The notes under the pieces are model-generated. The model was not told where the DNA came from. It did not search any database and saw only the letters and a program-made list of their open reading frames with translations. The translations under genes and the position numbers were made by a program. A stretch of DNA of 64,000 nucleotides from Limnohabitans sp. 103DPR2 (GTDB lineage Bacteria > Pseudomonadota > Gammaproteobacteria > Burkholderiales > Burkholderiaceae_C), in assembly GCF_001412575.1 (NCBI RefSeq), contig NZ_CP011834.1:1054001-1118000 (forward strand), in the 5' to 3' direction. This document shows, in pieces, positions 21,106 to 43,210 of the stretch; positions within the stretch are counted from its first letter, which is position 1; each line of letters starts with the position of its first letter.

Positions 21106-21169
21106 GCCAATTCTATTTCTCTTCGAGCAAATAGCACTCCACAATGCGTCAAAACAAAAGGAGACTCCC

Positions 21170-22162: not shown

Positions 22163-22164
22163 AC

Positions 22165-23016
22165 GTGAGCTTTGAATCTTTGGCTGTGCAGCGATGGGCT
22201 TTGCCCAATGGTATCGAGTTGCACGGCGTGCGCGCAGGCAATGGCGTGCCTCTCATCTTCATTCATGGCGCCATGGGCGATTGGCGTTCATGGGAAGCGC
22301 AGTGGTCTGCTTTTACAGCGCACTTTGATTGCATTTCTTACAGCCGTCGGTTCAGTTTTCCCAATCAGAACCATCAACCCTCGCCGCACCATTCGGCGTT
22401 GGACGAAGCACAAGACCTTGTGCATTTGTTGAACTTGCTCAACATTGACAAGGCCATCTTGGTGGGCAGCTCTTATGGCGGCTTTACGGCTTTGGCCCTT
22501 GCGGTTCAAGCGCCACAACGCATTCAAGCGCTGGTGGCCGTTGAGCCGCCCATGATGAAGTATGCGTATTTCACACCCGAAGGCCGAGACATTGCCGACG
22601 CATTTCGAACAGGCACCATTGAACCTGCCAACGCCGCGTTCAGAGAGGGTGACGATGTGCTTGCAGCGCAAATCATGACAGGTGGCATCAATGGTGCGAC
22701 CTCCGCAGTGGCGTCGGGTGCGGCCATGGAAAAGCGTTTGCAGAATTTGCAAGCCATGAAAATGATCGCGTTGTCGAGCGATGAGTTTCCGCTCATTCCG
22801 CCTGAACAATTGGCGGCTTTGCCGATGCCTGTGCTGTTGATGTCAGGGTTGAATACGCAGCCTGTGCACAAGGCCATCTTCGACAACGTGGTCGTCGCGA
22901 TGCCCAACGCCAAAGCGGTGCGTGTGGCCGGTGCCGGTCATGGCGTCAGTCGAGAGCAAGCGGCATTTTTCAACACCACGGTGTTGGCTTTTTTGGCAGA
23001 ATCCTCGACGCTTTGA
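22165..23016 (+). CDS. Alpha/beta hydrolase
   Basis: A 283-residue cytoplasmic hydrolase. The oxyanion region is FIHGAMGDWRSWEAQW, the nucleophile elbow is G-S-S-Y-G (Ser about 103) and the catalytic His lies in GAGHGVSRE near the C-terminus. The GTG at 22165 has AGAGG 8 bases upstream; TTG at 22159 overlaps the previous stop and is also possible. The family covers esterases, lactonases and amidases, so the substrate cannot be named. It belongs to the Bug/oxidase/amidase operon. Confidence 0.88.
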   Translation: MSFESLAVQRWALPNGIELHGVRAGNGVPLIFIHGAMGDWRSWEAQWSAFTAHFDCISYSRRFSFPNQNHQPSPHHSALDEAQDLVHLLNLLNIDKAILVGSSYGGFTALALAVQAPQRIQALVAVEPPMMKYAYFTPEGRDIADAFRTGTIEPANAAFREGDDVLAAQIMTGGINGATSAVASGAAMEKRLQNLQAMKMIALSSDEFPLIPPEQLAALPMPVLLMSGLNTQPVHKAIFDNVVVAMPNAKAVRVAGAGHGVSREQAAFFNTTVLAFLAESSTL

Positions 23017-23113
23017 ATTGGCTGCGCAGGGCTGCTCAAATGCGGGGTTTCTTGGCTCATAATTTGGCCATGAAGATTCTGAACACAGCGCTTTTCATCC
23101 GCCAAGGCAAGTC

Positions 23114-24250
23114 ATGACAACGCCCCTTTATGACTTTGCCATTGTGGGCGGCGGGATGGCCGGGGCTTCTGTCGCGTATCGCTTGGCACCTTCAGCGTCG
23201 GTTGTGTTGTTGGAGCGAGAGTCACAGCCTGGCTATCACACCACGGGTCGGTCGGCTGCCATGTTCATGGAGAGTTATGGGCCACCCGGTGTGCGAGCCT
23301 TGACGCGTGCCAGCCGGCAGTTTTATACAGCACCACCGCCACAGTTTTCAGCGCATTCATTGCTCAGCCCTAGGGGCGCACTGTATGTGGCTCAACAAGA
23401 CCAAGCGGAAGCTTTAAGACACGTCGCCGAAGAGTTGGGACAAAGCATTCCCAACCTCGCACATTTGTCAGCTCAACAAACCTTGGCGCTGGCGCCTTGC
23501 CTCAAACCCGATCAGCTGCTTGGCGCCTTGTGGGACCCCGACTCACAAGACATTGATGTCAATGCACTGCTTCAAGGATTTCTCAAAGGTTTTCAAAAAG
23601 AAGGCGGCCACTTGCAGTGCAATGCCGAAATGGTCGAAGCGAAATTTGTGCAAGATCATTGGTGTCTACGACTACAAAATGGTACCGAAGTGCGTGCCAA
23701 ATGTGTGGTCAATGCCAGCGGTGCATGGGGTGATGCTGTTGCCAGCATTGTGGGCGCCAAACCGATTGGCTTGGTGCCACGCCGACGAAGTGCTTTTACC
23801 TTCAAAGCGCCGGAGGGCACTGACACCAAAGCATGGCCAGCAATTGTCGGCATTGAAGAAGACTGGTATTTCAAACCCGATGCCGGTCAGCTGTTTGGCT
23901 CGCCTGCCAATGCAGACGACACCTTTGCGCACGACGTCTTGCCAGAGGACATGGACATTGCGCTGGGCATCGACCGCATCATGGCCGCGACAAATTTGAA
24001 CATCCATCGGCCCACCAGCACCTGGGCGGGCTTGCGCACATTTGCCCCAGACGGCGAAATGGTAATTGGCTTTGACGATGCTTGTCCTCAATTCTTTTGG
24101 TTGGTAGGGCAGGGCGGCTACGGCATTCAAAGTGCAGCGGGCTATTCCAGTTTGGCAGCATGTTTGCTTCAGCAGCAAGTTATCACCCCTGAGCTTGAAG
24201 CATGCGGCGTCGATGCCAGCATGTTTTACGTCCAACGATTGAGAAAATAA
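23114..24250 (+). CDS. FAD-dependent oxidoreductase of the D-amino-acid/glycine oxidase (DAO) family
   Basis: A 378-residue flavoprotein with the dinucleotide motif DFAIVGGGMAGASVAYRL at the N-terminus, ERESQPGYHTTGRSAAMF (FAD and substrate region), VVNASGAWGD in the middle, and GLRTFAPDGEMVIGF...GQGGYGIQSAAGYS near the C-terminus. Such enzymes oxidise amines, D-amino acids or glycine derivatives. The ATG overlaps the stop of a possible 15-codon reading frame (23070-23117). It lies about 100 bases after the hydrolase, with a possible own promoter (CATAAT at 23058-23063). Confidence 0.92.
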   Translation: MTTPLYDFAIVGGGMAGASVAYRLAPSASVVLLERESQPGYHTTGRSAAMFMESYGPPGVRALTRASRQFYTAPPPQFSAHSLLSPRGALYVAQQDQAEALRHVAEELGQSIPNLAHLSAQQTLALAPCLKPDQLLGALWDPDSQDIDVNALLQGFLKGFQKEGGHLQCNAEMVEAKFVQDHWCLRLQNGTEVRAKCVVNASGAWGDAVASIVGAKPIGLVPRRRSAFTFKAPEGTDTKAWPAIVGIEEDWYFKPDAGQLFGSPANADDTFAHDVLPEDMDIALGIDRIMAATNLNIHRPTSTWAGLRTFAPDGEMVIGFDDACPQFFWLVGQGGYGIQSAAGYSSLAACLLQQQVITPELEACGVDASMFYVQRLRK

Positions 24251-24262
24251 AAGGAGACGACT

Positions 24263-25270
24263 TTGAACAATTCAAAACGACAATGGCTGCAAACCAGCCT
24301 GCATGGCTTGGTGATCAGCGCATTCACAATGGGTGCACTCAGCACCGTCACTGGCGCCATGGCCCAAGCGGCCTACCCCAGCAAACCGATCAGTCTGGTG
24401 GTGCCATACCCACCGGGTGGTGCCACTGACATCATTGGTCGCATCATGGCGCAGGCCATGACCAAAAGCTTGGGTCAGCCGGTTGTGGTTGAAAACAAAG
24501 CGGGTGCAGGCACGGTCATCGGTGCAGCCGAAGTGGCGCAAGCACAAGCGGATGGTTACACCTTGTTGATCAGCTCCAACACTACCTTCACGGTCAATCC
24601 TGCCATCAAGGTCAAATTGCCTTATGACCCCGCTAAGAATTTTGAATCGGTGGCCGGCATTGGATCGTCGCCTTTGGTGTTATTGGCCAACCCCAATGTA
24701 CCTGTGAAAACTGTGAAAGAGCTTGTCGCTGCAGCCAACCAGCCCAGCGCCAAGTTTGCCTTTGGTTCATTCGGCAGTGGCACCACATCGCATTTGGCGG
24801 GTGAGATGTTCAAGTACATGGCGGGTGTGGACATTTTGCATGTGCCTTACAAAGGCAGCGCGCCGGCCATGACCGATTTGATTGGTGGTCAAATTCAGTT
24901 CACTTTTGACACCAATGTCGCTGCGCTTCCCATGTTGCGCGCAGGCAAAGTCAAAGCCATTGCGGTCACCTCTGCACAGCGCTCATCGACCTTGCCCGAA
25001 GTGCCCACCATTGCTGAGGCGGGCTACCCTGGCTATGAAATGGTGCCGTGGATTGTGATCGTGGCGCCACGAGGACTGCCCAAGGCTGTGAGTCAAAAGT
25101 TAACCAATACCATCCAGGACATTCTGAAAGATCCCAACTCAAAACGTGATTTGGAGCGCGCTGGTTTAGAAGTGGCATTTGAAGCACCGCAGTCTTACGA
25201 CAAACGCGTGGCCACCGAATTGCCACTGCTTCGTGCGTATGTGCACCGCGCCAAAATCACGGCGGACTGA
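24263..25270 (+). CDS. Bug-family (TctC-like) periplasmic solute-binding protein (second copy)
   Basis: A 335-residue Bug protein with a signal peptide ending GAMAQA and the motifs YPSKPISLVVPYPPGGATDIIGRIMAQ, VVENKAGAGTVIGAAEVAQA and FGSFGSGTTSHLAGEMFK. The start is TTG at 24263, with AAGGAG at 24251-24256 and correct spacing; no ATG fits. It differs clearly from the first Bug copy, so the operon may use two related ligands. The amidase gene follows after 2 bases. No TctA or TctB genes are near, so the membrane part must be elsewhere or the protein has a sensing role. Confidence 0.93.
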   Translation: MNNSKRQWLQTSLHGLVISAFTMGALSTVTGAMAQAAYPSKPISLVVPYPPGGATDIIGRIMAQAMTKSLGQPVVVENKAGAGTVIGAAEVAQAQADGYTLLISSNTTFTVNPAIKVKLPYDPAKNFESVAGIGSSPLVLLANPNVPVKTVKELVAAANQPSAKFAFGSFGSGTTSHLAGEMFKYMAGVDILHVPYKGSAPAMTDLIGGQIQFTFDTNVAALPMLRAGKVKAIAVTSAQRSSTLPEVPTIAEAGYPGYEMVPWIVIVAPRGLPKAVSQKLTNTIQDILKDPNSKRDLERAGLEVAFEAPQSYDKRVATELPLLRAYVHRAKITAD

Positions 25271-25272
25271 CC

Positions 25273-26757
25273 ATGACACTTGTTGAAAAATCTGCTGTCG
25301 AATTGCGTGCCCTGATTCGCAGCAAAGAACTGTCACCCGTCGAGTTAATGGACGCGTGCATTGCGCGCATTGAAGCACTCAATCCACACATCAATGCTGT
25401 CACGGCCACAGACTTTGAGCGTGCCCGAGCGACCGCCAAGCAGGCAGAAGCCCAGGTCATGCAGCAAGCTGAGTTACCCTTGCTGCTCGGCTTGCCCATG
25501 GGCGTGAAGGATTTGCAAGAGACGGCCGGCTTGCTCACCACCTACGGTAACGTTGGTTTGCGCGGCAATGTGCCCAAAGCCGACAACAGTTATGTGGCCA
25601 AGTTGAAACAAGCGGGTGCCATCGTCACCGCCAAAACCAATGTGCCTGACATGGGCGCCGGCGCGAACTCGCGCAACCCGGTGTGGGGTGCGACAGGCAA
25701 TCCTTTCAATCCTGCACTCAATGCAGGGGGCTCTTCGGGGGGCTCTGCGGCCGCTTTGGCCGTCGACATGTTTCCCATTTGCACAGGTTCTGACACCGGC
25801 GGCTCGTTGCGCATTCCTGCTGCACTGTGCGGCATTGTGGGCCTGCGGCCTTCACCAGGTGCGGTGGCCAATGACACCCGAGCCTTAGGATGGTCTGCCA
25901 TTTCGGTGTTGGGCCCCATGGCACGTTCAGTGGACGACGCCGCGCTCATGATGGCCGCATCTTTAGGCGCAGATCCGATGGACCCCTTGTCTTACGACCT
26001 GAGCCCTGGCCCTTTCTGGCCCTTGCCAGAAGTGGATGTGTCGCAACTTCGCATTGGCTATACGGAAGACTTTGACTTGTGCCATGTTGACCCTGGCATT
26101 CGCGAAGAATTTCGCAAACGAATCAATGCCATCAAACCTTTGGTAAAACGTTGCGAACCAGTTTCGTTTGAGGTGGCGCATGCGCACCGCACCTTTGATG
26201 TGTTGCGCGCCGAAAGTTTCTTTGCCGCCTTTGGTGACCCCGTCAAAAACCCGCCCGACACCCTCGGTCCCAACGTTCGCGCCAACCTGGCCATCGCCGA
26301 GCAAATTTCTTTGGGCGATCGGGCCATGGCGCATTTGGCGCAAACGCAATTGATGCGTCAGTTTGCCAAGAAGTTTCAAGATTTTGATTTGATCATTGCG
26401 CCTAACACACCTTTGTCACCCTTTCCTTGGACTGAGTTGTATGCCAAGGAAGTGGCCGGGCATGCCATGAACAATTACTACCATTGGCTAGAGTTGACCT
26501 ATGTGGTGACCCTGGCCACCAACCCGGCTTTGGCATTGCCATGCGGTGTTGATCTGAATGGCATGCCTTTTGGCTTGCAATTGATTGGTGAGTTGCGACA
26601 AGACGCTAAGTTATTGGCCATGTCCCACGCACTGGAAATGGCGTTGGCTTCGAACAAAGCCACCGCAAGGCCAAAACCAGATCAAGATCGCTTACGTCAA
26701 TCGTCGGTCAACCTGAAAGACATCGTGACGCACCCTCCGATTTTGAAGTCTTCATAA
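25273..26757 (+). CDS. Amidase (amidase signature family)
   Basis: A 494-residue hydrolase with the Ser-cisSer-Lys triad: Lys79 in GVKDLQE, cis-Ser154 in GGSSGGSAAA and nucleophile Ser178 in GSDTGGSLRIPA. This spacing equals that of GatA, but with no gatB/gatC neighbours and a divergent C-terminal part it is a catabolic amidase rather than the tRNA amidotransferase. It probably releases ammonia from an amide brought in by the Bug proteins. It is last in the operon; no clear hairpin follows before the convergent membrane gene. Confidence 0.93.
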   Translation: MTLVEKSAVELRALIRSKELSPVELMDACIARIEALNPHINAVTATDFERARATAKQAEAQVMQQAELPLLLGLPMGVKDLQETAGLLTTYGNVGLRGNVPKADNSYVAKLKQAGAIVTAKTNVPDMGAGANSRNPVWGATGNPFNPALNAGGSSGGSAAALAVDMFPICTGSDTGGSLRIPAALCGIVGLRPSPGAVANDTRALGWSAISVLGPMARSVDDAALMMAASLGADPMDPLSYDLSPGPFWPLPEVDVSQLRIGYTEDFDLCHVDPGIREEFRKRINAIKPLVKRCEPVSFEVAHAHRTFDVLRAESFFAAFGDPVKNPPDTLGPNVRANLAIAEQISLGDRAMAHLAQTQLMRQFAKKFQDFDLIIAPNTPLSPFPWTELYAKEVAGHAMNNYYHWLELTYVVTLATNPALALPCGVDLNGMPFGLQLIGELRQDAKLLAMSHALEMALASNKATARPKPDQDRLRQSSVNLKDIVTHPPILKSS

Positions 26758-29418: not shown

Positions 29419-29436
29419 TTGTCATGAATATTTCAT
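29419..29436 (+). promoter_or_regulatory. Candidate PHO box before the lipid-remodelling operon
   Basis: TTGTCAT-GAAT-ATTTCAT matches the PhoB repeat CTGTCAT-N4-CTGTCAT at 6 of 7 and 5 of 7 positions with the right 11-bp period. A further CTGAAAT lies three periods on, at 29452. It is 74 bases before the acyltransferase start. A -10 element at the expected distance is poor. It resembles the boxes before ppk1 and pstS in the same locus. Confidence 0.55.
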
Positions 29437-29509
29437 GCAAATGAAACATGCCTGAAATGGCTTGACCTCATGATCACCTACCAAGTTAAACCACACTTGG
29501 GAGCTGATC

Positions 29510-30349
29510 ATGAAAGAATTGCCAAGCCCGACATTCCCCTTGTCGCCCATTGCATTGCCTCGGGGGTCTCTTCATCCAAGCTCTCATGAACAAGCTTCGA
29601 AGGATTCAAAGTCCGTTTCAAATTCGCTGATTCAAGTCAGTTGGGCCAAGCACCAAGATGAAGTCAGAGAAGCCCAGCGATTGCGTTACAGCATTTTTGC
29701 CACGGAAATGGGCGCTCGGTTACCTGTCACGCTTGAAGGTCATGACATTGACTTGTTTGACGATTACTGTGAACACTTGCTGGTAAGAGATGCTGTTTCG
29801 CAACAAGTTGTTGGCACCTACCGCGTCTTGACGCCTGCGCAAGCCAAACGTGCTGGCAGCACCTACACCGACACTGAATTTGATTTAACACGCTTGCGTC
29901 ACATCAGAGAGCGCATGGTGGAGCTGGGCCGTAGCTGCGTTCATACAGACTATCGGCATGGCGGTGTCATCTTAAGCCTCTGGGGCGCCTTGTTTGAGTT
30001 CATGTCCCGCAACCAGCTAGACACCATGATCGGTTGTGCCAGCATTCCCATGCTGCACAGCGGCATGATCAGTGGTGATGTTGCGGCCAGCGTTTGGCAG
30101 CAACTGAAGTCCGAAGCGCTGTCTTCCGTCGAGTTTCATGTTCGGCCGCGCTTGCCATTGCCGATTGATGAATTAAATTCACAGTTGAACGTCGAGCCGC
30201 CTGCGCTGATCAAAGGCTACATTCGATTGGGTGCCAAGGTGCTGGGCGCACCGGCTTGGGATCCTGATTTCAACACGGCCGATTTGCCCATGATGATGCG
30301 TGTCGGTGATCTGCCGCGTCGTTATCGCAAACACTTTGAGGGTGTTTGA
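29510..30349 (+). CDS. OlsB-like GNAT N-acyltransferase (putative ornithine/amino-acid lipid synthesis)
   Basis: A 279-residue protein of the OlsB/haemolysin-like GNAT family: VREAQRLRYSIFATEMGARL, the VGTYRVLTP strand and the RMVELGRSCVHTDYRHGGVILSLWGALFEF core, which is diagnostic for the family. OlsB transfers a 3-hydroxyacyl group from ACP to ornithine, the first step to phosphorus-free ornithine lipids; other amino acids are possible. No olsA-type O-acyltransferase is in the window. The first 45 residues are low-complexity. It overlaps the next gene by one base (TGATG) and is preceded by a PHO-box candidate. Confidence 0.82.
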   Translation: MKELPSPTFPLSPIALPRGSLHPSSHEQASKDSKSVSNSLIQVSWAKHQDEVREAQRLRYSIFATEMGARLPVTLEGHDIDLFDDYCEHLLVRDAVSQQVVGTYRVLTPAQAKRAGSTYTDTEFDLTRLRHIRERMVELGRSCVHTDYRHGGVILSLWGALFEFMSRNQLDTMIGCASIPMLHSGMISGDVAASVWQQLKSEALSSVEFHVRPRLPLPIDELNSQLNVEPPALIKGYIRLGAKVLGAPAWDPDFNTADLPMMMRVGDLPRRYRKHFEGV

Positions 30350-31230
30350 TGCGATACGCTAAACATGAATCTGGCCAGGAACACTACCTCGAGTCGAATG
30401 TGTGGGCGACGCGTTCTAAAACGCACTATCGCTCTATTTTCATTTCTGATCTGCACTTGGGAACCCCAGGATGCCAGGCTGACGCCTTGTTGATATTTTT
30501 AAAAAATTACACCTGTGACAACCTGTATTTGGTGGGCGATATTGTGGATGGCTGGCAGCTTCGACGCAAATGGTATTGGCCCCAAAGCCACAATGATGTG
30601 GTGCAAAAATTACTGAGAAAAGCCAGAAAAGGCTGCAAGGTGATTTTTGTGCCAGGCAACCATGATGAGTTTGGCCGTCACTTTTTGGATCACTCGTTTG
30701 GTGGCATTGAAATCAGAGAAGAAGCTGTTCACGTCACAGCAGATGGCAAAAAATTGTGGGTGATTCACGGCGATTACTTTGACGGCGTGATTCAGTGTGC
30801 CAAATGGCTTGCCTATGTGGGCGACAGTTTGTATGAACTGACACTCAAACTGAACCGTTATTTGAACCAGTTAAGGGCCAGGTTGGGATTGCCGTATTGG
30901 TCCTTGTCTGCCTACCTCAAACTGAAGGTCAAGAAAGCGGTGAACTTTATTTCTGACTTTGAGGTTGCCGTTGCCAACGAGGCAAGAAAGCTGGGATATC
31001 AAGGTGTGGTCTGTGGTCATATCCATCACGCAGAAATTCGCAATATTGATGGGATGCTGTATTGCAACGATGGCGATTGGGTGGAGAGTTGCAGTGCCTT
31101 GGTAGAGCATGCCGATGGTCGCTTGGAAATTTTGAAATTCAATCCCAACGGTTCTACTTTGGACGTCCATGAGGGGCCCTTGGTGCAAGCAGGCGAGAAA
31201 TCGAGCTCAGAAAGTTGGGTGACCGCGTGA
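30349..31230 (+). CDS. Metallophosphoesterase, PlcP-like phospholipase C (often annotated LpxH-like)
   Basis: A 293-residue calcineurin-like enzyme with all metal motifs: SDLHLG, GDIVDGW, PGNHDEF, IHGDYFD and GHIHHAE. By family annotation it would be called a UDP-2,3-diacylglucosamine diphosphatase. However, the length, the C-terminal YCNDGDWVESCSALVE block and the direct partner glycosyltransferase match PlcP, which cuts phospholipids to diacylglycerol under phosphate starvation in marine bacteria. This role is inference from neighbourhood. The ATG overlaps the previous stop by one base, and the end overlaps the glycosyltransferase start by 4 bases, so all three genes are coupled. Confidence 0.85.
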   Translation: MRYAKHESGQEHYLESNVWATRSKTHYRSIFISDLHLGTPGCQADALLIFLKNYTCDNLYLVGDIVDGWQLRRKWYWPQSHNDVVQKLLRKARKGCKVIFVPGNHDEFGRHFLDHSFGGIEIREEAVHVTADGKKLWVIHGDYFDGVIQCAKWLAYVGDSLYELTLKLNRYLNQLRARLGLPYWSLSAYLKLKVKKAVNFISDFEVAVANEARKLGYQGVVCGHIHHAEIRNIDGMLYCNDGDWVESCSALVEHADGRLEILKFNPNGSTLDVHEGPLVQAGEKSSSESWVTA

Positions 31231-32255
31231 AGTTGCTGCTCATCACCGATGCCTGGATGCCGCAAGTCAATGGCGTAGTCACCACGCTGGTTGAGTTGGT
31301 TCGAGAGTTGAGCAAGTTGGGTCATCAAGTGACGGTGATCCATCCTGGCTTGTTCAAGACGCGCCCTTGCCCTGGCTATGCAGGCATCGATTTGGCGGTT
31401 AGACCCCGTCAGCAGATGGCGGCCATGATGGCCTCTGAAAAATTTGACGCAGTTCACATTGCGACAGAAGGCCCATTGGGGTGGGCTGCACGGGGCCTGT
31501 GTCAGCAGAAAAAATGGCCCTTCACAACGGCTTTTCACACGCGCTTCCCCGAGGTCTTGAAGGCAGCTGCAGGCATACCGCTTTGGATGGGCTATGCCTT
31601 GTTTCGGCATTTCCACAAGCCCTCATCAGGCGTGATGGTGCCGACGCAAGGTGTCTTGAATCTGCTGACACAACGTGGTTTTCAAAACTTGAAACTCTGG
31701 ACACATGGTGTTGACACAGAGTTGTTTGAATATGCGCAAGAGTGCCAGTTAGACGATCAACTTGCGCATTTAAAAAGGCCGATCAGCATGTTCGTTGGTC
31801 GTGTTTCCTACGAAAAGAACATTGAAACTTATTTGGCAATGCCCTTTGAGGGCAGCAAGGTGGTCTGCGGTGTGGGGCCGCTGGAAGCAGATCTGAAAGC
31901 CAAGTACCCGGACGTCACGTGGCTAGGCTTGCTGCCCCGAAAAGAGTTGGCACGTGTTTATGCCTCTGCGGATGTCTTTGTCTTTCCCAGTCGAAATGAA
32001 ACTTTTGGATTGGTCATGCTCGAGGCCATGGCATGTGGCACGCCTGTCGCGGCATTTCCTGTCGACGGCCCCTTTGAAGTGCTAACGGCGTCCTCCGGGG
32101 ATGTGCTGGGTGGGGTGCTGCATCCAGACTTGGCAGAAGCAACGCGGCAAGCCTTGCAGGTACCTCGCCAGTCAGCCAGAGATCGTGCATACGACTTCAG
32201 TTGGGCAAGAGCTTCGCAGTTGTTTGTCAGTTATGTGCGCCAGATAACGGTCTAA
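31227..32255 (+). CDS. GT4-family glycosyltransferase, probable glycolipid synthase partner of PlcP
   Basis: A 342-residue GT-B enzyme. The N-terminal domain opens LLLITDAWMPQVNGVVTTL. The C-terminal domain starts PISMFVGRVSYEKNIE and holds the E-x7-E nucleotide-sugar motif in RNETFGLVMLEAMACGTPVAAF. This resembles diacylglycerol glucosyltransferases (Agt, SqdX-like), which make glycolipids from the diacylglycerol released by PlcP. The GTG at 31227 overlaps the TGA of the metallophosphoesterase gene (GTGA); a TTG at 31215 is less likely. The acceptor is not proven. The operon ends before the ppk1 PHO box. Confidence 0.87.
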   Translation: MKLLLITDAWMPQVNGVVTTLVELVRELSKLGHQVTVIHPGLFKTRPCPGYAGIDLAVRPRQQMAAMMASEKFDAVHIATEGPLGWAARGLCQQKKWPFTTAFHTRFPEVLKAAAGIPLWMGYALFRHFHKPSSGVMVPTQGVLNLLTQRGFQNLKLWTHGVDTELFEYAQECQLDDQLAHLKRPISMFVGRVSYEKNIETYLAMPFEGSKVVCGVGPLEADLKAKYPDVTWLGLLPRKELARVYASADVFVFPSRNETFGLVMLEAMACGTPVAAFPVDGPFEVLTASSGDVLGGVLHPDLAEATRQALQVPRQSARDRAYDFSWARASQLFVSYVRQITV

Positions 32256-32296: not shown

Positions 32297-32314
32297 TTGT
32301 CATCAATCTGACAT
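32297..32314 (+). promoter_or_regulatory. PHO box upstream of ppk1
   Basis: TTGTCAT-CAAT-CTGACAT: each heptamer matches CTGTCAT at 6 of 7 positions, with the canonical 4-base spacer. AAGAAT lies 10 bases downstream (32325-32330), at the place where PhoB promoters have their -10. It is the clearest PhoB site in the window. Confidence 0.72.
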
Positions 32315-32391: not shown

Positions 32392-34476
32392 TTGCTCAGA
32401 CCCGGTTCTATCGAAAAAAAGCGGTCTGGACAGACCGATGTGCCACTCCTAGACAGGGATGAAAGCATTCTTGCCTTCAATGAACGTGTTCTCGATTGGG
32501 CTAAACGACCTGAAGTGCCACTGTTGGAGCGACTGCGTTATTTGTGCATTGTTTCATCCAATTTGGATGAGTTTTTTGAGGTTCGCGCCGACTTGCACAT
32601 GGCAGCCTTCAGGTCTGATGAGTCAAAAGGCCCCTACCGCAAGGACACGTTTCACAGTTTGTATGAGCATGCACGCGTTGTTGTGAATGAACAGTACAGG
32701 TTGTACAACGACGTGCTGCTCCCAAAATTGCAAAAGCACGGCATCAAAATTCTGTCGCATGGTGAACGAACCCCGCTTCAGCGCAAGTGGGTTGCCGAGT
32801 ACTTTCAAAGAGAGGTTCGTCCTCTTCTTGTCCCCGTAGGCTTAGATCCTGCTCACCCCTTTCCTCAGGTTGCCAACAAATCTTTGAATTTCATTGTGCA
32901 GTTGTCGGGCAAAGATGCCTTCGGCAAAATCAATGACATCGCCATTGTGAAAGTGCCCCGGGTATTGCCTCGTGTGATTCCCTTGCCAGCCAAAGTGGCA
33001 GGCAAGCACGTGTCGGTTGTTCTGTTGTCCAGTGTGATTCGCGCGCATTTGTCAGAACTTTTCCCTGGACGTTCGGTGGTGCATTTCTCGCAATTCAGGG
33101 TGACTCGTAACTCCGATTTGTCAGTCGATGAAGAAGATGTTGAAAATTTGCGGACTGCACTCAGGCGCGGCCTTCAGCACCGTCACTATGGCCAAGCCTT
33201 GCGCTTGGAGGTTTCTGACAGTTGCATGGTGCATCTGTCAGACTTTTTGTTAAAGCAATTTGACTTGCCAGACAGTGCGCTCTTTCGCGTAGCAGGACCG
33301 GTGAACCTGGTTCGACTCAGCCAATTGATTGACTTGGTGGACGAGCCCAAGCTCTTGTTTTCACCCTACAAAGCGTGCTACCCCAAGCAATTGACCAAGG
33401 GTGCATCCATCATGGCGCGAATGCGTCAAGGCGACATTCTGATTCATCAACCCTTTGAAAGTTTTGATGGCGTCTTGGCCTTTTTGAAAGAAGCAGTTGA
33501 AGACCCGCAGGTTTTGGCCATCAAACAAACCATCTACCGCACAGGCAGCGATCCTGCCATGATGAACTTGCTACGTGAAGCGGTTCGCCGTGGCAAAGAG
33601 GTGACGGCCGTTGTTGAATTGAAAGCGCGATTTGACGAAGAGGCCAACATCAATTGGGCGGAACAACTGGAGGCGGTGGGTGCACAGGTGGTGTACGGCG
33701 TGGTGGGCCTTAAAACACACGCCAAAATGCTTCTGGTCACAAGGCAAGAAGGTCGCGCATTGAAGCGCTATGGCCACATGTCAACGGGCAACTACAACCC
33801 CCGCACTGCCAAGCTCTACACTGACCTCAGTTATCTGACGTGTGATACAGCCATGACGGGTGACATGGACCGCTTGTTTGTTCATTTGGCCAGTCCTTCG
33901 CGCCTGAGTCGCATGAGCAAATTGATCACTGCACCGTTTCACATGCAGCGCAAATTGATTGAGAAAATTGATCAAGTGGGGGCTGCTGCGGCCAATGGGT
34001 TGAGTGCCCGGGTTGTTGTCAAAATGAATGCGCTCACAGACCCTAGTCTGATTCATGCATTGATCAGGGCAGGTCAACAAGGTGCACAAATTGATTTGAT
34101 CGTGCGCGGTGCATGCATGTTGCCCGCTGGGGTTCCTGGTCAAACGGAGAACATTCGTGTTCGATCCATCATTGGACGCTTCTTGGAGCATTCGCGGGTT
34201 TTCTACTTTGAAGCAGGCGATGAGCAATCCTTGTACTTGGCCAGTGCCGATTGGATGAGTCGCAACATGACACGGCGCATTGAGTTGGCATGGCCAGTGG
34301 TCGATCCTGTTCTGCGCAGGCGCATCATTGACGAATGTCTGTTGGCATACCTCTATGACACGCGCAATGCTTGGACCTTGGAGGCCGATGGACAGTATCA
34401 CCGCGTAGAGAAGAATGGCCAAAAAATTCAAAGTGCTCAGGCATTGTTGATGCAGCAATACGTCAGCAGTTCTTGA
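32392..34476 (+). CDS. ppk1: Polyphosphate kinase 1
   Basis: A 694-residue enzyme that polymerises the terminal phosphate of ATP into polyphosphate. The N-terminal domain shows LLERLRYLCIVSSNLDEFFEVR. The catalytic part contains HAKMLLVTR (His443) and GHMSTGNYNPRTA (His462), spaced by 19 residues like His435 and His454 of E. coli Ppk. The start is TTG at 32392, supported by GGGAGG at 32381-32386; no better ATG exists. A PHO box precedes it. sixA follows within 17 bases and ppx is convergent, giving synthesis and breakdown of polyphosphate in one place. Confidence 0.97.
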   Translation: MLRPGSIEKKRSGQTDVPLLDRDESILAFNERVLDWAKRPEVPLLERLRYLCIVSSNLDEFFEVRADLHMAAFRSDESKGPYRKDTFHSLYEHARVVVNEQYRLYNDVLLPKLQKHGIKILSHGERTPLQRKWVAEYFQREVRPLLVPVGLDPAHPFPQVANKSLNFIVQLSGKDAFGKINDIAIVKVPRVLPRVIPLPAKVAGKHVSVVLLSSVIRAHLSELFPGRSVVHFSQFRVTRNSDLSVDEEDVENLRTALRRGLQHRHYGQALRLEVSDSCMVHLSDFLLKQFDLPDSALFRVAGPVNLVRLSQLIDLVDEPKLLFSPYKACYPKQLTKGASIMARMRQGDILIHQPFESFDGVLAFLKEAVEDPQVLAIKQTIYRTGSDPAMMNLLREAVRRGKEVTAVVELKARFDEEANINWAEQLEAVGAQVVYGVVGLKTHAKMLLVTRQEGRALKRYGHMSTGNYNPRTAKLYTDLSYLTCDTAMTGDMDRLFVHLASPSRLSRMSKLITAPFHMQRKLIEKIDQVGAAAANGLSARVVVKMNALTDPSLIHALIRAGQQGAQIDLIVRGACMLPAGVPGQTENIRVRSIIGRFLEHSRVFYFEAGDEQSLYLASADWMSRNMTRRIELAWPVVDPVLRRRIIDECLLAYLYDTRNAWTLEADGQYHRVEKNGQKIQSAQALLMQQYVSSS

Positions 34477-34493
34477 TTTCAAATGAGTTGATC

Positions 34494-34955
34494 ATGGACT
34501 TGATTTTTTGGCGTCATGCAGATGCATTGGACGCAGTGGACGGTCAAGAGGACTTGTTGCGTGAGCTGACGCCCAAGGGCGAAAAGCAAGCTACCAAAAT
34601 AGGCCACTGGCTTGACCGTCAATTGCCCGAGGGTGTGCGCGTGATCAGCAGTCCTGCAACCCGGGCAGAACAAACGGCGCGTGCTTTGGGGCGCAAATAC
34701 AAATTAAAGTCAGACTTGTTGCCAGACGCCTCTGCCGTTGAATTGCTAGAGGCAGTCGGGTGGCCTCATTCCAAAATGTCGGTGGTGGTGGTCGGTCATC
34801 AGCCAGTGATCGGACACTGCATCGCCTATTTGCTGGGCATGCCGGGCAATGAATTGCTGGTCAGAAAAGGCGCGGTTTGGTGGTTGCGAAGTCGTGTGCG
34901 CGATGGCGTTCCACAAACCGTCGTCGTTTCTGTTCAAACGCCGGAGCTAATTTGA
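34494..34955 (+). CDS. sixA: Phosphohistidine phosphatase SixA
   Basis: A 153-residue histidine phosphatase. The RHAD catalytic motif (WRHADALDAV) sits at the N-terminus, ISSPATRAEQTARAL follows, and the second catalytic His lies in VVVGHQPVIGH. SixA removes phosphate from His residues of phosphotransfer proteins; in E. coli the target is PtsN-linked NPr. It follows ppk1 closely, and its 3' end overlaps ppx tail-to-tail by 22 bases. A ppk-sixA-ppx order is common in Burkholderiales. ATG 34494 gives the normal N-terminus. Confidence 0.93.
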   Translation: MDLIFWRHADALDAVDGQEDLLRELTPKGEKQATKIGHWLDRQLPEGVRVISSPATRAEQTARALGRKYKLKSDLLPDASAVELLEAVGWPHSKMSVVVVGHQPVIGHCIAYLLGMPGNELLVRKGAVWWLRSRVRDGVPQTVVVSVQTPELI

Positions 34956-36598: not shown

Positions 36599-36616
36599 TT
36601 GACATGAATTTGTCAC
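36599..36616 (+). promoter_or_regulatory. PHO box upstream of pstS
   Basis: TTGACAT-GAAT-TTGTCAC has two PhoB-type heptamers with the standard 4-base spacer. A -10-like TAAAGT lies 10 bases later (36627-36632), and pstS starts 97 bases downstream. A third, less regular copy (CGGTCAC) follows. The layout is that of a PhoB-activated pst promoter. Confidence 0.7.
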
Positions 36617-36712
36617 AATCGGTCACTAAAGTTGCCTTGTGACAGACAAGTCTCCATCGGCTTTTCGATGTCATTGACCGCTGAGTTTCAACCTCTGAAT
36701 CAAGGATTCAAC

Positions 36713-37735
36713 ATGCTAAAGATCAAAACCTGGGTATCCGCATTAGGCTTGTCCGTGCTGGCCACAACTGCCATGGCCGCCGAAATTACGGGTGCGGGCG
36801 CAACATTTCCATTCCCCATCTATGCCAAATGGGCAGAAGCCTATAAAGCCAAGACTGGCAACAGCATGAATTACCAGTCGATTGGTTCATCGGGTGGTAT
36901 CAAGCAAATCAAAGCCAAAACAGTGGACTTTGGCGCCACAGACGCACCCGTCAGCTTTGAAGATTTGGAAAAAGATGGCATGGTCCAGTTCCCCGCCATC
37001 ATTGGTGGTGTGGTGCCCGTTGTGAACATTGAAGGCATCAAGCCAGGCCAGTTGAAATTGACAGGCGAGTTGTTGGCCGATGTGTTCGCCGGTGTCATTG
37101 CCAAATGGAATGACAAGCGCATTGCTGATTTGAATCCTGGTGTTGCATTGCCTGATGCCGCCATCACGGTGGTTCACCGTGCAGACGGTTCTGGTACAAC
37201 TGCCGTGTTCACGGACTACTTGGCCAAAGTCAATGCCAACTGGAAATCAACAGTGGGTGCTGGGGCTGCAGTTAAGTGGCCAGCAGCCTCCTCAGTAGGT
37301 GGCAAGGGCAACGAAGGCGTTGCTGCTAACGTGAGCCGTATCAAAAACGCAATTGGTTACGTTGAGTACGCTTACGCCAAGAAAAACAACATGTCGCATT
37401 TGAATCTGCGCAACCAAGCGGGTCAGTTTGTTGCGCCTGATGATGAAACATTTGCTGCGGCTTCAGCCAATACCGACTGGTCCAAAGTTCCAGGCATGGG
37501 CATCTACTTGACCAATGCACCAGGTGCCAAGTCTTGGCCCATCACCGGCGCGTCTTTCATCTTGATGTACAAAGATCCTGCCAACAAAGCCAACTCTGCT
37601 GAAGTGATCAAGTTTTTTGACTTCGCTTTCAAAGAAGGCAAGAAAATGGCCGCTGATTTGGAATATGTGCCAATGCCTGACGCAACGACCGACTTCATTC
37701 GTAAGAACGTTTGGAACAAAATCAACGTCAAATAA
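36713..37735 (+). CDS. pstS: Phosphate ABC transporter periplasmic binding protein PstS
   Basis: A 340-residue protein with a signal peptide ending TAMAA. PstS motifs are EITGAGATFPFPIYAKWAEAYK, the phosphate-binding SIGSSGGIKQIKAKTVDFGATDAP, and HRADGSGTTAVFTDYL. It captures phosphate for the PstCAB importer. ATG 36713 has AAGGA upstream and starts the signal peptide; the longer open frame has none. It is first in the pst-pho operon behind a PHO box. A 20-bp palindrome right after its stop may lower expression of the downstream membrane genes relative to pstS. Confidence 0.97.
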   Translation: MLKIKTWVSALGLSVLATTAMAAEITGAGATFPFPIYAKWAEAYKAKTGNSMNYQSIGSSGGIKQIKAKTVDFGATDAPVSFEDLEKDGMVQFPAIIGGVVPVVNIEGIKPGQLKLTGELLADVFAGVIAKWNDKRIADLNPGVALPDAAITVVHRADGSGTTAVFTDYLAKVNANWKSTVGAGAAVKWPAASSVGGKGNEGVAANVSRIKNAIGYVEYAYAKKNNMSHLNLRNQAGQFVAPDDETFAAASANTDWSKVPGMGIYLTNAPGAKSWPITGASFILMYKDPANKANSAEVIKFFDFAFKEGKKMAADLEYVPMPDATTDFIRKNVWNKINVK

Positions 37736-37736
37736 A

Positions 37737-37756
37737 GTGCAAATTTAAATTTGTAC
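37737..37756. repeat. 20-bp palindrome between pstS and pstC
   Basis: GTGCAAATTT and AAATTTGTAC are complementary apart from one G:T pair, without spacer. It lies directly after the pstS stop. It could fold into a short hairpin that protects or separates the abundant pstS message. The evidence is only positional. Confidence 0.35.
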
Positions 37757-37773
37757 GTTTCTAGAAGTTAGAC

Positions 37774-38754
37774 ATGAACAATGCAGACGATTTGATGACC
37801 TCGCACCGCCAGAGCGTATTGCGCTGGCAGCGGTGGCAAGACTTTTTCTTTGAGAAAACCACCTTGGTTTTTGCCTTGTCCACTTTGGTGGCACTCACAG
37901 GCATCATCGTCTCGTTGTTCGTCAGTTCCATGCCAGTGTTGCAAACATTTGGCTTGGAGTTTTTTTACACCATTGAATGGGACATCATCAATTCTCAGTT
38001 CGGTGGTTTGATTGCTATTTTTGGCACGGTGGTCACGGCCACCATTGCCATTGTGATTGCCTTGCCGCTCAGCTTTGGCATTGCCGTGTTTTTGACTGAA
38101 ACATGCCCCATGAGATTGCGCCGTCCCCTGGGAACAGCCATTGAACTGTTGGCGGCTGTGCCTTCCATCATTTACGGCATGTTTGGTTTGTTTGTATTTG
38201 CGCCCTTGTTTGCAGAATATGTTCAACCTGCATTGGCGTCCACACTGGGTCAGATTCCAGTGATCGGAATTTTGTTCACCGGTGCCTTCAATGGCATTGG
38301 CATTTTGGCGGCTGGCCTCATTTTGGCCATGATGATTTTGCCTTTCATTGCCTCCGTCATGCGCGATGTTTTTGAAATCGTGCCACCCATTCTCAAGGAG
38401 TCTGCCTATGGCATTGGATGCACCACCTGGGAAGTGGTGACCAAGATTGTGCTGCCCTACACCAAGACTGGCGTCGTAGGAGGCGTCATGTTGGGTCTTG
38501 GCCGTGCTTTGGGCGAAACCATGGCGGTCACTTTTGTGATTGGCAATGCACACAAACTGTCGCCTTCGTTGTTCTCGCCAGGTAACTCTATAGCATCCAC
38601 CCTGGCCAATGAGTTTGGCGAAGCAGAGCCAGGGTTGCACTACGCCTCTTTGTTTGCGCTGGCCTTGGCGCTGTTTGTGATCACCTTGGTGGTCTTGTCT
38701 TTGGCCAAATGGATGCTGTTACGCGCCGAAGCCAAGAAAGGTTTGAAGACATGA
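37774..38754 (+). CDS. pstC: Phosphate ABC transporter permease PstC
   Basis: A 326-residue inner-membrane permease with six to seven helices. Family marks are [35 protein letters not shown], the [23 protein letters not shown] block and the EAA-type loop [49 protein letters not shown]. It forms the phosphate channel with PstA. It is 38 bases after pstS and overlaps pstA by 4 bases (ATGA). Confidence 0.96.
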
Positions 38755-39608
38755 GCAACATGGACCCTTCTATTTACGCCCGCCGTAAGCGCGTCAACCT
38801 GATTGGCTTGGTGTTGTCGATGTCCGCCATGGCCATTGGTTTGGGATTTTTATTTTGGATTTTGAGCATCTTATTGCTGAAGGGCTTTTCAGCAATACAT
38901 CTGTCGATGTTCTTAGAAAGTACGCCTGCACCGGGATCTGACGGTGGCGGCTTGGCCAATGCCATCGTGGGCAGTTTGATGATCGTGGTGTCGTGCTCAT
39001 TGATCAGCACGCCCATTGGTGTCTTGGCAGGTGTCTACCTGTCCGAATACGGTGATCGCAGTCGATTGGCTTCGATCACACGTTTTGTGAATGACATCAT
39101 GCTGTCGGCACCCTCTATCGTGATTGGTTTGTTTGTTTACGCCATGGTCGTGGTGCCCAGTAAACATTTTTCGGGTTGGGCCGGTACCGTGGCACTGACC
39201 TTGATTGCCATTCCTGTGGTGGTTCGCACCACAGAGAACATGCTGAAATTGGTTCCCGTCAGTTTGCGCGAGGCTGCTTTTGCGTTGGGCGCACCCAAGT
39301 GGAAAGTCTCGACGTCAGTGGTCTTGAAAGCTGCACGCAGTGGCGTGATGACGGGGCTTTTGTTGGCGTTGGCAAGGGTTAGTGGTGAAACCGCACCCCT
39401 GTTGTTTACGGCGTTGAACAACCAATTCTTCAACATGGACATGACCAAACCCATGGCCAATTTGCCAGTGGTTATTTTCCAATTTGCCATGAGTCCCTAT
39501 GAGAACTGGGTGAACTTGGCATGGGGAGGCGCATTGCTCATCACCCTCACTGTACTCGCCTTGAACATCATCGCCCGCGTTGTGTTTCGCGAAAAAGTAG
39601 CTGCTTAA
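38751..39608 (+). CDS. pstA: Phosphate ABC transporter permease PstA
   Basis: A 285-residue permease with six helices. It shows [40 protein letters not shown] and the EAA loop [52 protein letters not shown] 38751 overlaps the pstC stop (ATGA), which is the coupled start expected; the ORF extends further upstream in frame but inside pstC. It pairs with PstC and the PstB ATPase. Confidence 0.96.
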
Positions 39609-39624
39609 ATTAACCTGATTGAAC

Positions 39625-40401
39625 ATGAATTCAAAACCTGAATCCAAAGAAACCATCCTAGAAGTTCGCGACTTGAACTTCTACTACGGTGCATTTCAAG
39701 GCCTGAAGCACATCAATCTGAACATCCAGAAGAACACCGTCACGGCGTTCATTGGACCATCAGGTTGTGGCAAGTCCACATTGCTTCGCACGCTCAATCG
39801 GATGTACGACTTGTATCCTGGCCAGCGTGCAGAGGGTGAGATCTTGTTTGATGGTCAGAATATTTTGGATCCCAAGCAAGACCTGAACCTGTTGCGTTCA
39901 CGCATCGGCATGGTGTTCCAAAAGCCTACGCCTTTCCCCATGTCCATCTACGACAACATCGCCTTCGGTGTTCGCTTGTACGAAAAATTATCACGCAGTG
40001 ACATGGACGAGCGCGTCGAATGGGCATTGCAAAAGGCAGCCATCTGGGATGAGGTCAAAAACAAGCTGAACCAAAGCGGTTTGTCACTGTCGGGTGGCCA
40101 GCAGCAGCGTTTGTGCATTGCGCGCGGTATTGCTGTGAAGCCCTCCATTTTGTTGCTGGACGAACCCACCTCCGCGTTGGACCCCATTTCAACAGGCAAG
40201 GTAGAAGAGTTGGTTCACACCTTGAAGAGTGAATACACCGTGGTCATTGTGACGCACAACATGCAGCAGGCTGCACGTGTTTCCGATTACACCGCGTACA
40301 TGTACTTGGGTGAGTTGATGGAATTTGGTGAAACTGACCAAATCTTCATGAAGCCTGCCCGTCAAGAAACCGAAGATTACATCACTGGCCGTTTCGGCTG
40401 A
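39625..40401 (+). CDS. pstB: Phosphate ABC transporter ATPase PstB
   Basis: A 258-residue ATPase with Walker [10 protein letters not shown], signature [16 protein letters not shown], Walker [14 protein letters not shown] and the PstB-type opening [23 protein letters not shown], together with [21 protein letters not shown]. It powers phosphate import. The ATG at 39625 was preferred over a TTG two codons earlier. It is followed 16 bases later by phoU behind an AGGAG site. Confidence 0.97.
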
Positions 40402-40417
40402 TCAGGAGACCTCAAAA

Positions 40418-41116
40418 ATGGATAAGCACATTTCCAGTCAATTTGACAATGAGTTGGGCAGTGTCTCTAGCCGAGTGCTTGAGTTGGGTGGGCTGGTTGA
40501 GACGCAAATCCGCCATGCCGTTTATGCCTTGTCACATTTCAGCAATGAGGTGGCTGATGAAGTGATCGCAGGCGAAGAGAAAATCAATTCAATGGAAGTT
40601 GAGATTGACCGCGATCTGTCTTCCATCATTGCCCGTCGGCAACCCACCGCGCGCGACTTGCGCTTGTTGATTGCTATCTCCAAAATGACCGCCAACTTAG
40701 AGCGTGTAGGCGATGAGGCAGAAAAGATTGCCCGCATGGTTAAAGCCATTAGCGCCAGTGGCAATGCACGTTTCCTGCCTGCCTCTGAATTGCGCATTGC
40801 TTCAGATTTGGCTTCTGGACTGCTTCGCAAGGCACTGGACGCATTTGCACGTTTAGATGTGGCGGAAGCCGTGAGCATTCTCAAAGAGGACGATCTGATC
40901 GATGCAGAGTTTGACGGTTTTGTGCGCAAATTGGTCACTTACATGATGGAAGATCCGCGAACCATCTCGGCCAGTTTGGATTTGTTGTTCATCGCCAAAG
41001 CCATTGAGCGAATTGGCGATCACGCCAAGAACATTGCAGAGTTCATCATTTACGTGGTGAAAGGCGCTGATGTGCGTCACATTGCATTTGCAGATGTGGA
41101 GTCTGCAGTTAAATGA
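40418..41116 (+). CDS. phoU: Phosphate signalling protein PhoU
   Basis: A 232-residue all-helical protein of two PhoU repeats, each with the E/D-x3-D metal pattern: DEVIAGEEKINSMEVEIDRDLSSII, ISKMTANLERVGDEAEKIARMVKAI and LFIAKAIERIGDHAKNIAEFIIYVVKG. PhoU links the PstSCAB transporter to PhoR and keeps the Pho regulon off when phosphate is plentiful. It overlaps phoB by 4 bases (ATGA at 41113-41116), giving one pstSCAB-phoU-phoBR operon. Confidence 0.97.
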   Translation: MDKHISSQFDNELGSVSSRVLELGGLVETQIRHAVYALSHFSNEVADEVIAGEEKINSMEVEIDRDLSSIIARRQPTARDLRLLIAISKMTANLERVGDEAEKIARMVKAISASGNARFLPASELRIASDLASGLLRKALDAFARLDVAEAVSILKEDDLIDAEFDGFVRKLVTYMMEDPRTISASLDLLFIAKAIERIGDHAKNIAEFIIYVVKGADVRHIAFADVESAVK

Positions 41117-41835
41117 GAAATTTGCCACGCATTTTGATTGTTGAAGACGAGCCAGCCATTGCTGAGCTGATCGCTGTCAACTTGCGACACAATGGTTTCC
41201 AGCCTTTTTGGGCCATGGACGGCGTGACGGCGCAAAAGGAATTGGACGATGTGCTGCCCGATGTCATTTTGCTCGACTGGATGTTGCCCGGTGAGAGTGG
41301 CTTGGCCTTGTCTAAAAAATGGCGCAATCATTCGCGCACCAAGGACATCCCCATCATCATGCTGACCGCCCGAAGCGAGGAGTCTGATCGGGTTGCGGGT
41401 TTGGATTCTGGTGCGGACGATTACATCGTTAAGCCCTTTTCTACCAAAGAATTGTTGGCGCGAATTCGTGCGGTCTTAAGAAGACGCGCGCCAGAGCAAT
41501 CGGGTGGCCGTATTCAAATGAATGAATTGATCTTGGATGCTGATACCCATCGCGTTACTTTTCAAGATCAACCTCTCAAATTGGGTCCTACAGAATTCAA
41601 ATTGCTTCAATATTTCATGACGCACAAAGAGCGCGTTCACAGTAGGGGACAACTCTTAGACCGTGTCTGGGGCGATCATGTGTTCATCGAAGAAAGGACC
41701 GTCGACGTCCATGTGAAGCGCTTGCGGGAAGCGCTGGGAGCCGCCGGTGCAATGGTTGAAACTGTTCGAGGCGCGGGTTATCGTTTGACTGCATTGTCGT
41801 CTTCATCTCCTGCTTCCAACGCGACTTCCAACTGA
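41113..41835 (+). CDS. phoB: Phosphate regulon response regulator PhoB
   Basis: A 240-residue OmpR-class regulator. The receiver domain has acidic residues EDE (11-13), phosphoacceptor Asp55 in VILLDWMLPG and Lys in VKPFSTKEL. The C-terminal winged helix ends with SRGQLLDRVWGDHVFIEERTVDVHVKRLREAL, the PhoB recognition-helix region. It binds PHO boxes, several of which are visible nearby. It is coupled to phoU upstream and to phoR 7 bases downstream. Confidence 0.97.
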   Translation: MRNLPRILIVEDEPAIAELIAVNLRHNGFQPFWAMDGVTAQKELDDVLPDVILLDWMLPGESGLALSKKWRNHSRTKDIPIIMLTARSEESDRVAGLDSGADDYIVKPFSTKELLARIRAVLRRRAPEQSGGRIQMNELILDADTHRVTFQDQPLKLGPTEFKLLQYFMTHKERVHSRGQLLDRVWGDHVFIEERTVDVHVKRLREALGAAGAMVETVRGAGYRLTALSSSSPASNATSN

Positions 41836-41842
41836 CCTCAGC

Positions 41843-43210
41843 ATGTTTCCACGATTTATAGGCTTGCTTTTTTGGCTGATGGTCATGGGCGTGATGGGCT
41901 TTTGGTATGCCCGGACTTTGGGCGCACTTGCGGCTGCGCTTGCATTTGCACTGTTTACGATTTTCAAAGATTTGTGGCGTGGGCAAAAGATTTCGAATTG
42001 GTTGCGCCATAACACCGTCCAGGAGCCGCCAGTATTGGGTGGCTTGTGGGGTGATTTGATTGATCGCTTGCGCAGAATATTGAACGATCAAAAGAAGCAA
42101 ACGGAATCACATCAAAAGCGACTTCAAGATTTTTTATCAGCCATTCAAGCCTCTCCCAATGGCGTGGTGTTGCTCGATCCTGAAGGCCGAATTGAATGGT
42201 GCAATCAAACGGCGGCACATCATTTGGGATTCGATACCAAACGTGATGTGATGCAGCACGTCGTTCATTTGGTTCGTGACCCCGTCTTCAAGAAATATTA
42301 TTTGCAAGAAACGCATGATGGCGAAGTGATCATTGAAGGGCGTTCCTCTTCTTTGTCATACAGCGTGAAGTTATCAGTGCAATTACATGCCTATGGTGAA
42401 AATCGCCAATTATTGCTGTCACGTGACGTGACAGCCTTGGCGCAAGCTGAGGCCATGCGGCGTGATTTTGTGGCCAATGTATCGCATGAAATTAGAACGC
42501 CTTTAACTGTATTGAGTGGCTTCATTGAGACTTTGCAAACGCTGGATTTAAAGCCTGAGGACAGAGTTAAATTTTTAGATTTAATGTCGACCCAAGCCAG
42601 TCGTATGCAAGGGCTTGTGAACGACCTTTTAACGCTCTCTCAATTGGAGGGCAGTCCTTTGCCTCTGATGACAGAGCAATTTATGCTGAGTGAGTTAATG
42701 GGCGCAGCTGAAGCAGAAGCCAAGGGCTTGTCTGTCGCCAACTCTGTCGAGGGTCGTTTGACGCAAACATTGCGTTTTGAAATGTCACAGGAATGGCGTT
42801 TGATAGGGTCCCGACATGAAATTTACAGTGCCGTCACCAACTTGATCAACAATGCAGTACGTTATACACCGCAAGATGGAACTGTCACATGCATCTGGGC
42901 TCAATTGCCAGATCAACGTTTGCAGTTCTCTGTTCAAGATACAGGGCCTGGCATTGCACCAGAACATCTACCCCGATTGACTGAACGCTTTTATCGCGTG
43001 GATCGGAGCCGTTCTAGAGAGTCGGGTGGTACGGGGCTGGGTCTTGCCATTACCAAGCACGTCATGCAGCGTCATGGCGGCGAACTGCGCATCGAAAGTG
43101 AACTTGGAAAAGGCTCTAAGTTTTCTCTGATATTCCCAGAATCTCGCACACTTGAAGTGTTGCAAAATTCATCAGATATTCATCTGGAAGTCACGCATTC
43201 TTCATCTTGA
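41843..43210 (+). CDS. phoR: Phosphate regulon sensor histidine kinase PhoR
   Basis: A 455-residue membrane kinase. Two N-terminal hydrophobic helices (about 5-40) have almost no periplasmic loop; a PAS domain spans about 95-200; the H-box VSHEIRTPLTVL holds His215; and the ATPase has an N-box (NLINNAVRYTP), DTGPGIAPEHLPRLTERFYRVDRSRSRESGGTGLGLAITK. This is PhoR architecture: it senses phosphate through PstSCAB-PhoU rather than directly, and phosphorylates PhoB. It ends the operon; a hairpin follows 17 bases after the stop. Confidence 0.96.
   Translation: MFPRFIGLLFWLMVMGVMGFWYARTLGALAAALAFALFTIFKDLWRGQKISNWLRHNTVQEPPVLGGLWGDLIDRLRRILNDQKKQTESHQKRLQDFLSAIQASPNGVVLLDPEGRIEWCNQTAAHHLGFDTKRDVMQHVVHLVRDPVFKKYYLQETHDGEVIIEGRSSSLSYSVKLSVQLHAYGENRQLLLSRDVTALAQAEAMRRDFVANVSHEIRTPLTVLSGFIETLQTLDLKPEDRVKFLDLMSTQASRMQGLVNDLLTLSQLEGSPLPLMTEQFMLSELMGAAEAEAKGLSVANSVEGRLTQTLRFEMSQEWRLIGSRHEIYSAVTNLINNAVRYTPQDGTVTCIWAQLPDQRLQFSVQDTGPGIAPEHLPRLTERFYRVDRSRSRESGGTGLGLAITKHVMQRHGGELRIESELGKGSKFSLIFPESRTLEVLQNSSDIHLEVTHSSS

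Follow-up and report, generated by a model that had tools for sequence, protein, structure and literature searches.

A candidate PhoB-activated lipid-remodelling operon joining olsB-, plcP- and agt-like genes beside ppk in Limnohabitans sp. 103DPR2

Introduction

Two kinds of gene arrangement close to the one considered here are already in print. As far as the accessible parts of the papers go, a plcP gene and an agt glycosyltransferase gene stand within one cluster in Methylosinus trichosporium OB3b, Pseudomonas aeruginosa (PA3219-PA3218), Pelagibacter HTCC7211 and Erythrobacter NAP1 (PMC9239053, PMC8528852, PMC4796936), with a Pho box upstream of the pair in P. aeruginosa; one of these papers prints the Pho box consensus as CTGTCATNNNNCTGTCAT (PMC8528852). 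For the OlsB/OlsA ornithine lipid pathway of Burkholderia sensu lato, the available portion of another report places a Pho box before olsB in 21 of 43 genomes with a first matrix and in 43 of 43 with a second (PMC7814305). Here we describe a run of three genes in a window of 64,000 nucleotides (C1:1054001-1118000) from Limnohabitans sp. 103DPR2, whose genome of 2.95 Mb is a single contig. An olsB-like, a plcP-like and an agt-like gene follow one another in this run, and they quite likely constitute a PhoB-activated lipid-remodelling operon through which ornithine-type lipid and glycolipid would be made and phosphate would be stripped from phospholipids.

With the published plcP-agt pairs the locus shares a plcP and a glycosyltransferase gene (gt) in one cluster, and with the Burkholderia pathway an OlsB-like N-acyltransferase gene preceded by a Pho box. 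It differs from the former in that olsB stands in front within the same run, in that ppk and sixA come after it, ppk with a Pho box of its own, and in its host, a member of the Comamonadaceae (Limnohabitans-type); from the latter it differs in the overlap of olsB with plcP and in an OlsA-like gene that is unlinked and lies behind pyrC. None of the parts is novel in kind, and the arrangement itself is shared with relatives. The new elements are the modular cluster joined in the order olsB-plcP-gt-ppk, the Pho box of ppk and a set of naturally occurring forms without gt or without plcP; the joined olsB-plcP-agt-ppk operon was not found in the literature searched, namely titles and abstract openings with few subscription journals covered. 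The comparisons made here concern gene content, gene order, conservation, co-occurrence and the enrichment of Pho boxes.

Identity of the three genes

The three open reading frames lie on the forward strand at 29510-30349, 30349-31230 and 31227-32255, the first pair overlapping by 1 base and the second by 4 bases. Their coordinates and starts bear out the overlaps given in a preliminary description of this DNA, and the operon-like layout adjoining ppk, pst and phoBR that it proposed also stands. The first gene (29510..30349) encodes a protein of 279 amino acids with an N-acyltransferase domain (PF13444), for which Pfam and NCBIfam profile searches returned two OlsB models as the best named matches (155.5 and 150.8 bits), in agreement with the OlsB-like assignment made earlier. 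The alignment of the protein with relatives of many families starts at about residue 40 and extends to the C-terminus, a region that includes a conserved stretch around PAWDPDFNTADL; residues 1 to 38 are matched mainly within the family and have mostly low model confidence (mean predicted local distance difference test, pLDDT, of 85.7 for the whole predicted model, with residues 1-8 and 16-38 below 50). A PDB sequence search with this protein gave one match (E 0.97). The second PF13444 gene of the genome was considered as another OlsB and rejected, since it matches a thioesterase model and GNAT models.

The curated OlsB equivalog cut-offs were missed (155.5 versus 350 bits; 150.8 versus 320 bits), so the protein is named OlsB-like and not a certain member. 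The same shortfall would leave room for an enzyme that acylates another amino acid, for instance glutamine, and gives a different aminolipid, and glutamine lipids do occur in marine bacteria according to the accessible part of one report (PMC6298996). A change of substrate of this kind seems rather improbable, given a GlsB model score of 24 bits against 155.5 for OlsB and the presence in the genome of an OlsA-like gene, which stands beside olsB in some relatives.

The middle gene (30349..31230, starting at an ATG) encodes a calcineurin-type metallophosphoesterase of 293 amino acids. Residues D34, H36, D64, N104, H140, H224 and H226, which we take to be the calcineurin-type metal ligands, are conserved in 98% or more of a set of 200 PlcP sequences that includes the one from the window. 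These ligands and the superfamily motifs are common to LpxH (UDP-2,3-diacylglucosamine diphosphatase), and an LpxH-type enzyme here would turn the operon from phosphate starvation to the assembly of lipid A or envelope sugars. Close homologues are indeed labelled LpxH in public annotations, and the PDB entry that scores best by sequence is that of a UDP-2,3-diacylglucosamine hydrolase (E 6.5e-4). However, the protein reaches only 45 bits with the LpxH model, for which the cut-off is 134, and the genome has an LpxH of its own, of a separate family, at C1:2311314 and above that cut-off (232 bits). Moreover, all matches to the plcP-like protein in 150 genomes of the phylum fall into two groups, either at or above 204.8 bits or at or below 36.4 bits, and the motif GNHD is invariant in the 200 PlcP sequences where the LpxH of this genome has GNRD, one among several family-wide differences. 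We exclude an LpxH identity on the sub-cut-off score, the separate LpxH, the two-group split and the GNHD motif; an operon for lipid A or envelope sugars is also opposed by the coupling with Pho boxes, ppk, pst and a glycosyltransferase, and is highly improbable. Judged by its sequence, and by its neighbours in the window (an Agt-like glycosyltransferase gene and a Pho box), the middle protein is most likely of the PlcP type, as the preliminary description had it.

The third gene (31227..32255, starting at a GTG) encodes a protein of 342 amino acids in which profile searches found GT4 domains. We assume the Agt of the published pairs to be a GT4 enzyme as well. From these domains and the position of its homologues behind plcP, the protein is most likely an Agt-like GT4 glycosyltransferase with predicted sugar transfer, as earlier proposed.

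The tie between the glycosyltransferase and plcP

Outside the family, 40 of 54 loci have a homologue of the glycosyltransferase (42-51% identity) immediately after plcP; for the part from the phylum the figure is 18 of 26. The 54 are the best-scoring loci kept and not every match. The recurrence of plcP and glycosyltransferase across the phylum sample matches the published plcP-agt pair, and the preliminary description was right to recognise it; its marine character does not hold as a specific trait. Within the family we used 99 genomes, one congener and 98 of other genera, with the genome itself left out; partial matches in three of them (G034, G081, G086) were taken as present and an olsB match of 19.6 bits in a fourth (G076) as absent. 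The glycosyltransferase is found in 36 of the 99 at E<=1e-50, and plcP is present in all 36, as would be expected if the enzyme needs the diacylglycerol made by PlcP; plcP occurs without it in 39 genomes (Fisher 3.7e-6 for co-occurrence, ignoring kinship among genomes).

Pho-box-like sites before olsB, ppk and pstS

Candidate sites were scored with what we take to be the Pho box consensus, CTGTCATNNNNCTGTCAY. The site before olsB (TTGTCATGAATATTTCAT, 29419..29436, forward strand, score 12.5) matches 11 of 14 core positions, and its score is reached in 9 of 300 dinucleotide shuffles of that intergenic stretch; taken by itself it is therefore only suggestive. A second site, before ppk (TTGTCATCAATCTGACAT, 32297..32314, forward strand), scores 13.5, reached by 0 of 300 shuffles, and a third, before pstS (TTGACATGAATTTGTCAC, 36599..36616, forward strand), scores 12.5, reached by 10 of 300; five sites of at least 12.5 exist in the whole window on both strands, and these three are among them. 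It is the company of the ppk and pstS sites, together with conservation above chance in relatives, that makes the olsB site convincing.

In this regard, a site of at least 12 precedes olsB in 27 of 79 relatives (shuffle mean 2.5, maximum 4 of 79) and ppk in 52 of 62 (shuffle mean 3.1, maximum 7 of 62); random stretches of the same named loci reach that score in 16 of 395 and 19 of 310 cases, respectively. In the family sample such a site stands before 13 of 26 olsB genes (random stretches, 10/370) and before 14 of 48 plcP genes that lack olsB in front (random, 13/370). Shuffles are matched for base composition and the random stretches are not. The ppk site is better conserved than the olsB site, and it persists in 19 of 23 loci without a gt match. 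The gene ppk (polyphosphate kinase 1 by family search, 32392..34476, forward strand) comes after the operon and remains its neighbour in many relatives; since it has a stronger box of its own, it probably forms a separate unit under PhoB control. The repeat at 29419 noticed earlier is thus present, above chance and partly conserved; the stronger site at 32297 had been missed.

Conservation of the arrangement

Two sets of loci were compared. The first consists of 80 named loci, mostly titled Limnohabitans, Comamonadaceae, Polaromonas, Curvibacter, Hylemonella or Burkholderiales, which were fetched by similarity to olsB and therefore favour the arrangement. Among the 67 in which the sequence continues for 5500 bases or more beyond olsB, the order olsB-plcP-gt-ppk occurs in 36, olsB-plcP-ppk in 18, olsB-plcP-gt in 5, olsB-ppk in 4, olsB-plcP in 3 and olsB alone in 1. 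As for the 18 loci where the glycosyltransferase is absent between plcP and ppk, L022, L029, L033 and L034 are examples. One of the named records, L027 (CALQKH020000017.1), is titled Akkermansia muciniphila and carries the operon; it matches Limnohabitans sp. Rim28 (L028) at 97.3% identity over 16.8 kb and is probably a misnamed metagenome-assembled genome.

The second set is the unbiased family sample, in which 75 genomes besides our own have plcP; 74 of these loci were fetched, the match of the 75th running off its contig. The olsB gene lies directly upstream of plcP in 26 of the 74, the glycosyltransferase directly behind it in 33, and the complete order olsB-plcP-gt-ppk is present in 17. 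In the rest of the order, plcP (at least 140 bits) was found in 41 of 88 genomes, and olsB (at least 160 bits) also in 33 of these 41; the two genes are within 10 kb of each other in 9 of the 33 genomes that have both, from six families. Their arrangements vary: olsB-plcP-gt in G105; olsB followed by plcP-pstS-pstC-pstA in G166; ppk-plcP-gt with ppx and an OlsA-like gene in G101, where olsB is 6.8 kb away; gt-plcP-gt divergent to olsB-olsA, with phoR/phoB beside, in G118; and an OlsA-like gene divergent to plcP-gt-DgkA-olsB in G129 and G172. DgkA, a prokaryotic diacylglycerol kinase (PF01219), lies between an agt-like gene and olsB at L239:4642-5040 and L240:4754-5155, in two genomes from a different family within the order, where it is a possible return path for diacylglycerol. 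At L242:2315-7239, plcP has a GT4 gene on either side, the two being different; olsB and an OlsA-like gene are divergent to this group, and phoR/phoB adjoin.

In a FastTree phylogeny of 199 PlcP sequences, adjacency of olsB accounts for 21 changes (shuffled mean 62.0) and gt for 34 (shuffled mean 62.1), so both states follow descent yet changed many times. The three-gene join described earlier is real and not peculiar to this genome, since it recurs in the Comamonadaceae and looser clusters are found in six other families.

These data also bear on whether the three genes might simply be loose neighbours, each a PhoB target gathered near pst and ppk, that serve no common process. The position of olsB, which in 48 of the 74 family loci does not immediately precede plcP (in G091, one of the 48, it is on the other side), and the occurrence of forms without plcP or without gt would agree with such an origin. 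Nevertheless, the reading frames overlap, the glycosyltransferase is never found without plcP in the 99 family genomes, and the genes cluster repeatedly and in different orders across families, which is good evidence for a shared process; mere neighbourhood is, in our view, unlikely by a wide measure.

A putative OlsA-like partner elsewhere in the genome

The absence of olsA noted in the preliminary description is true for the window and does not extend to the genome, which has three PlsC-family genes. One of them (C1:2633981-2634715) matches OlsA models best (127 bits, with 98 for the general PlsC model); for another (C1:44630) the general PlsC model is best (92 bits, with 42 for OlsA). An unusual acyltransferase product, as formerly suggested, need not be invoked given this OlsA-like gene, which starts 2 bases behind a dihydroorotase-like (pyrC) gene and has thus no room for a promoter or Pho box of its own. 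The PlsC-family protein L005 is weaker and has no OlsA match.

Relatives of the OlsA-like gene were counted above a line of 160 bits, the link to pyrC being known for the gene of this genome. Seven of the 99 family genomes fall below the line, and olsB is absent from four of them and present in three. In one of the latter (G048), an OlsA-like gene with the OlsA model as best match (120.6 bits) lies directly upstream of olsB, in a single run olsA-olsB-plcP-gt-ppk; the other two, judged by similarity to C1:2633981 only, have matches of 109.6 bits about 0.5 kb from olsB on the opposite strand (G019) and of 157.5 bits about 6.5 kb from it (G022). In G064, an OlsA-like gene (119.9 bits) is divergent to olsB-plcP-gt, and a more distant OlsA-like gene is also present.

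Proposed mechanism and its standing

The enzyme activities, the amino acid and sugar used, PhoB binding and co-transcription, as we infer them, would combine as follows. When phosphate is scarce, PhoB would bind the site at 29419 and the three genes would be transcribed together. PlcP would then remove the phosphate-bearing head group of phospholipids to leave diacylglycerol, to which the Agt-type GT4 enzyme would add a sugar, giving a phosphorus-free glycolipid. OlsB would join a 3-hydroxy fatty acid to ornithine, and the OlsA-type acyltransferase from the distant pyrC-linked gene would complete the ornithine lipid, while ppk would be induced at the same time from its own Pho box. A betaine lipid was considered as the fate of diacylglycerol and rejected, the genome having no match to PF11899, presumably the BtaA family.

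Several observations weigh against a remodelling operon of this form. In the family, no more than 26 of 74 loci have olsB immediately before plcP, 12 of 99 genomes have olsB and no plcP, and the 39 with plcP and no glycosyltransferase imply that PlcP has some role without it; outside the family, 14 of the 54 best-scoring loci lack a glycosyltransferase homologue directly behind plcP. A site of at least 12 precedes olsB in no more than 27 of 79 relatives. In addition to the OlsB-like protein, the OlsA-like one is below its curated cut-off (127 versus 300 bits), and relatives of the latter above 160 bits exist in 92 of the 99 genomes, including 13 of the 17 without olsB, so it could be a second PlsC, and its role as OlsA is putative.

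A broader proposal, which we advance tentatively and consider doubtful, is that of a modular membrane-phosphorus recycling island of the order, by which lipid phosphorus would be moved into polyphosphate and not simply saved. PlcP would strip the lipid phosphate, Agt and OlsBA would make up the membrane with phosphorus-free lipids, DgkA (clustered with these genes in two genomes) would return diacylglycerol to phospholipid, and co-induced PPK would bank the freed phosphate as polyphosphate. In the Limnohabitans genome DgkA is unlinked (C1:1592614).

Neighbouring genes in the window

Beyond ppk, a sixA-like histidine phosphatase gene (34371..34955, forward strand; translation and family search) was listed with an open reading frame that overlaps ppk, so its true start is probably later. 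Further along the window lie the phosphate uptake and sensing genes pstS-pstC-pstA-pstB-phoU-phoB-phoR (36632..43210, forward strand). The identities of ppk, pstS, phoB and phoR come from family searches (Pfam/NCBIfam), and ppx, pstC, pstA, pstB and phoU were recognised by reading translations alone. Upstream of the operon, at 20957-26757, another single run comprises two tripartite tricarboxylate transporter receptor-like proteins, an alpha/beta hydrolase, an FAD oxidoreductase and an amidase, as labelled by eye.

Meaning for freshwater bacteria

The papers found on lipid remodelling concern, in the parts available, marine bacteria, a methanotroph and a pseudomonad. The locus described here predicts that freshwater bacteria of the Limnohabitans type would remodel their membranes by two routes at once under phosphate scarcity. 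It offers a small and testable set of genes, whose natural variants without agt or without plcP could show the contribution of each route.

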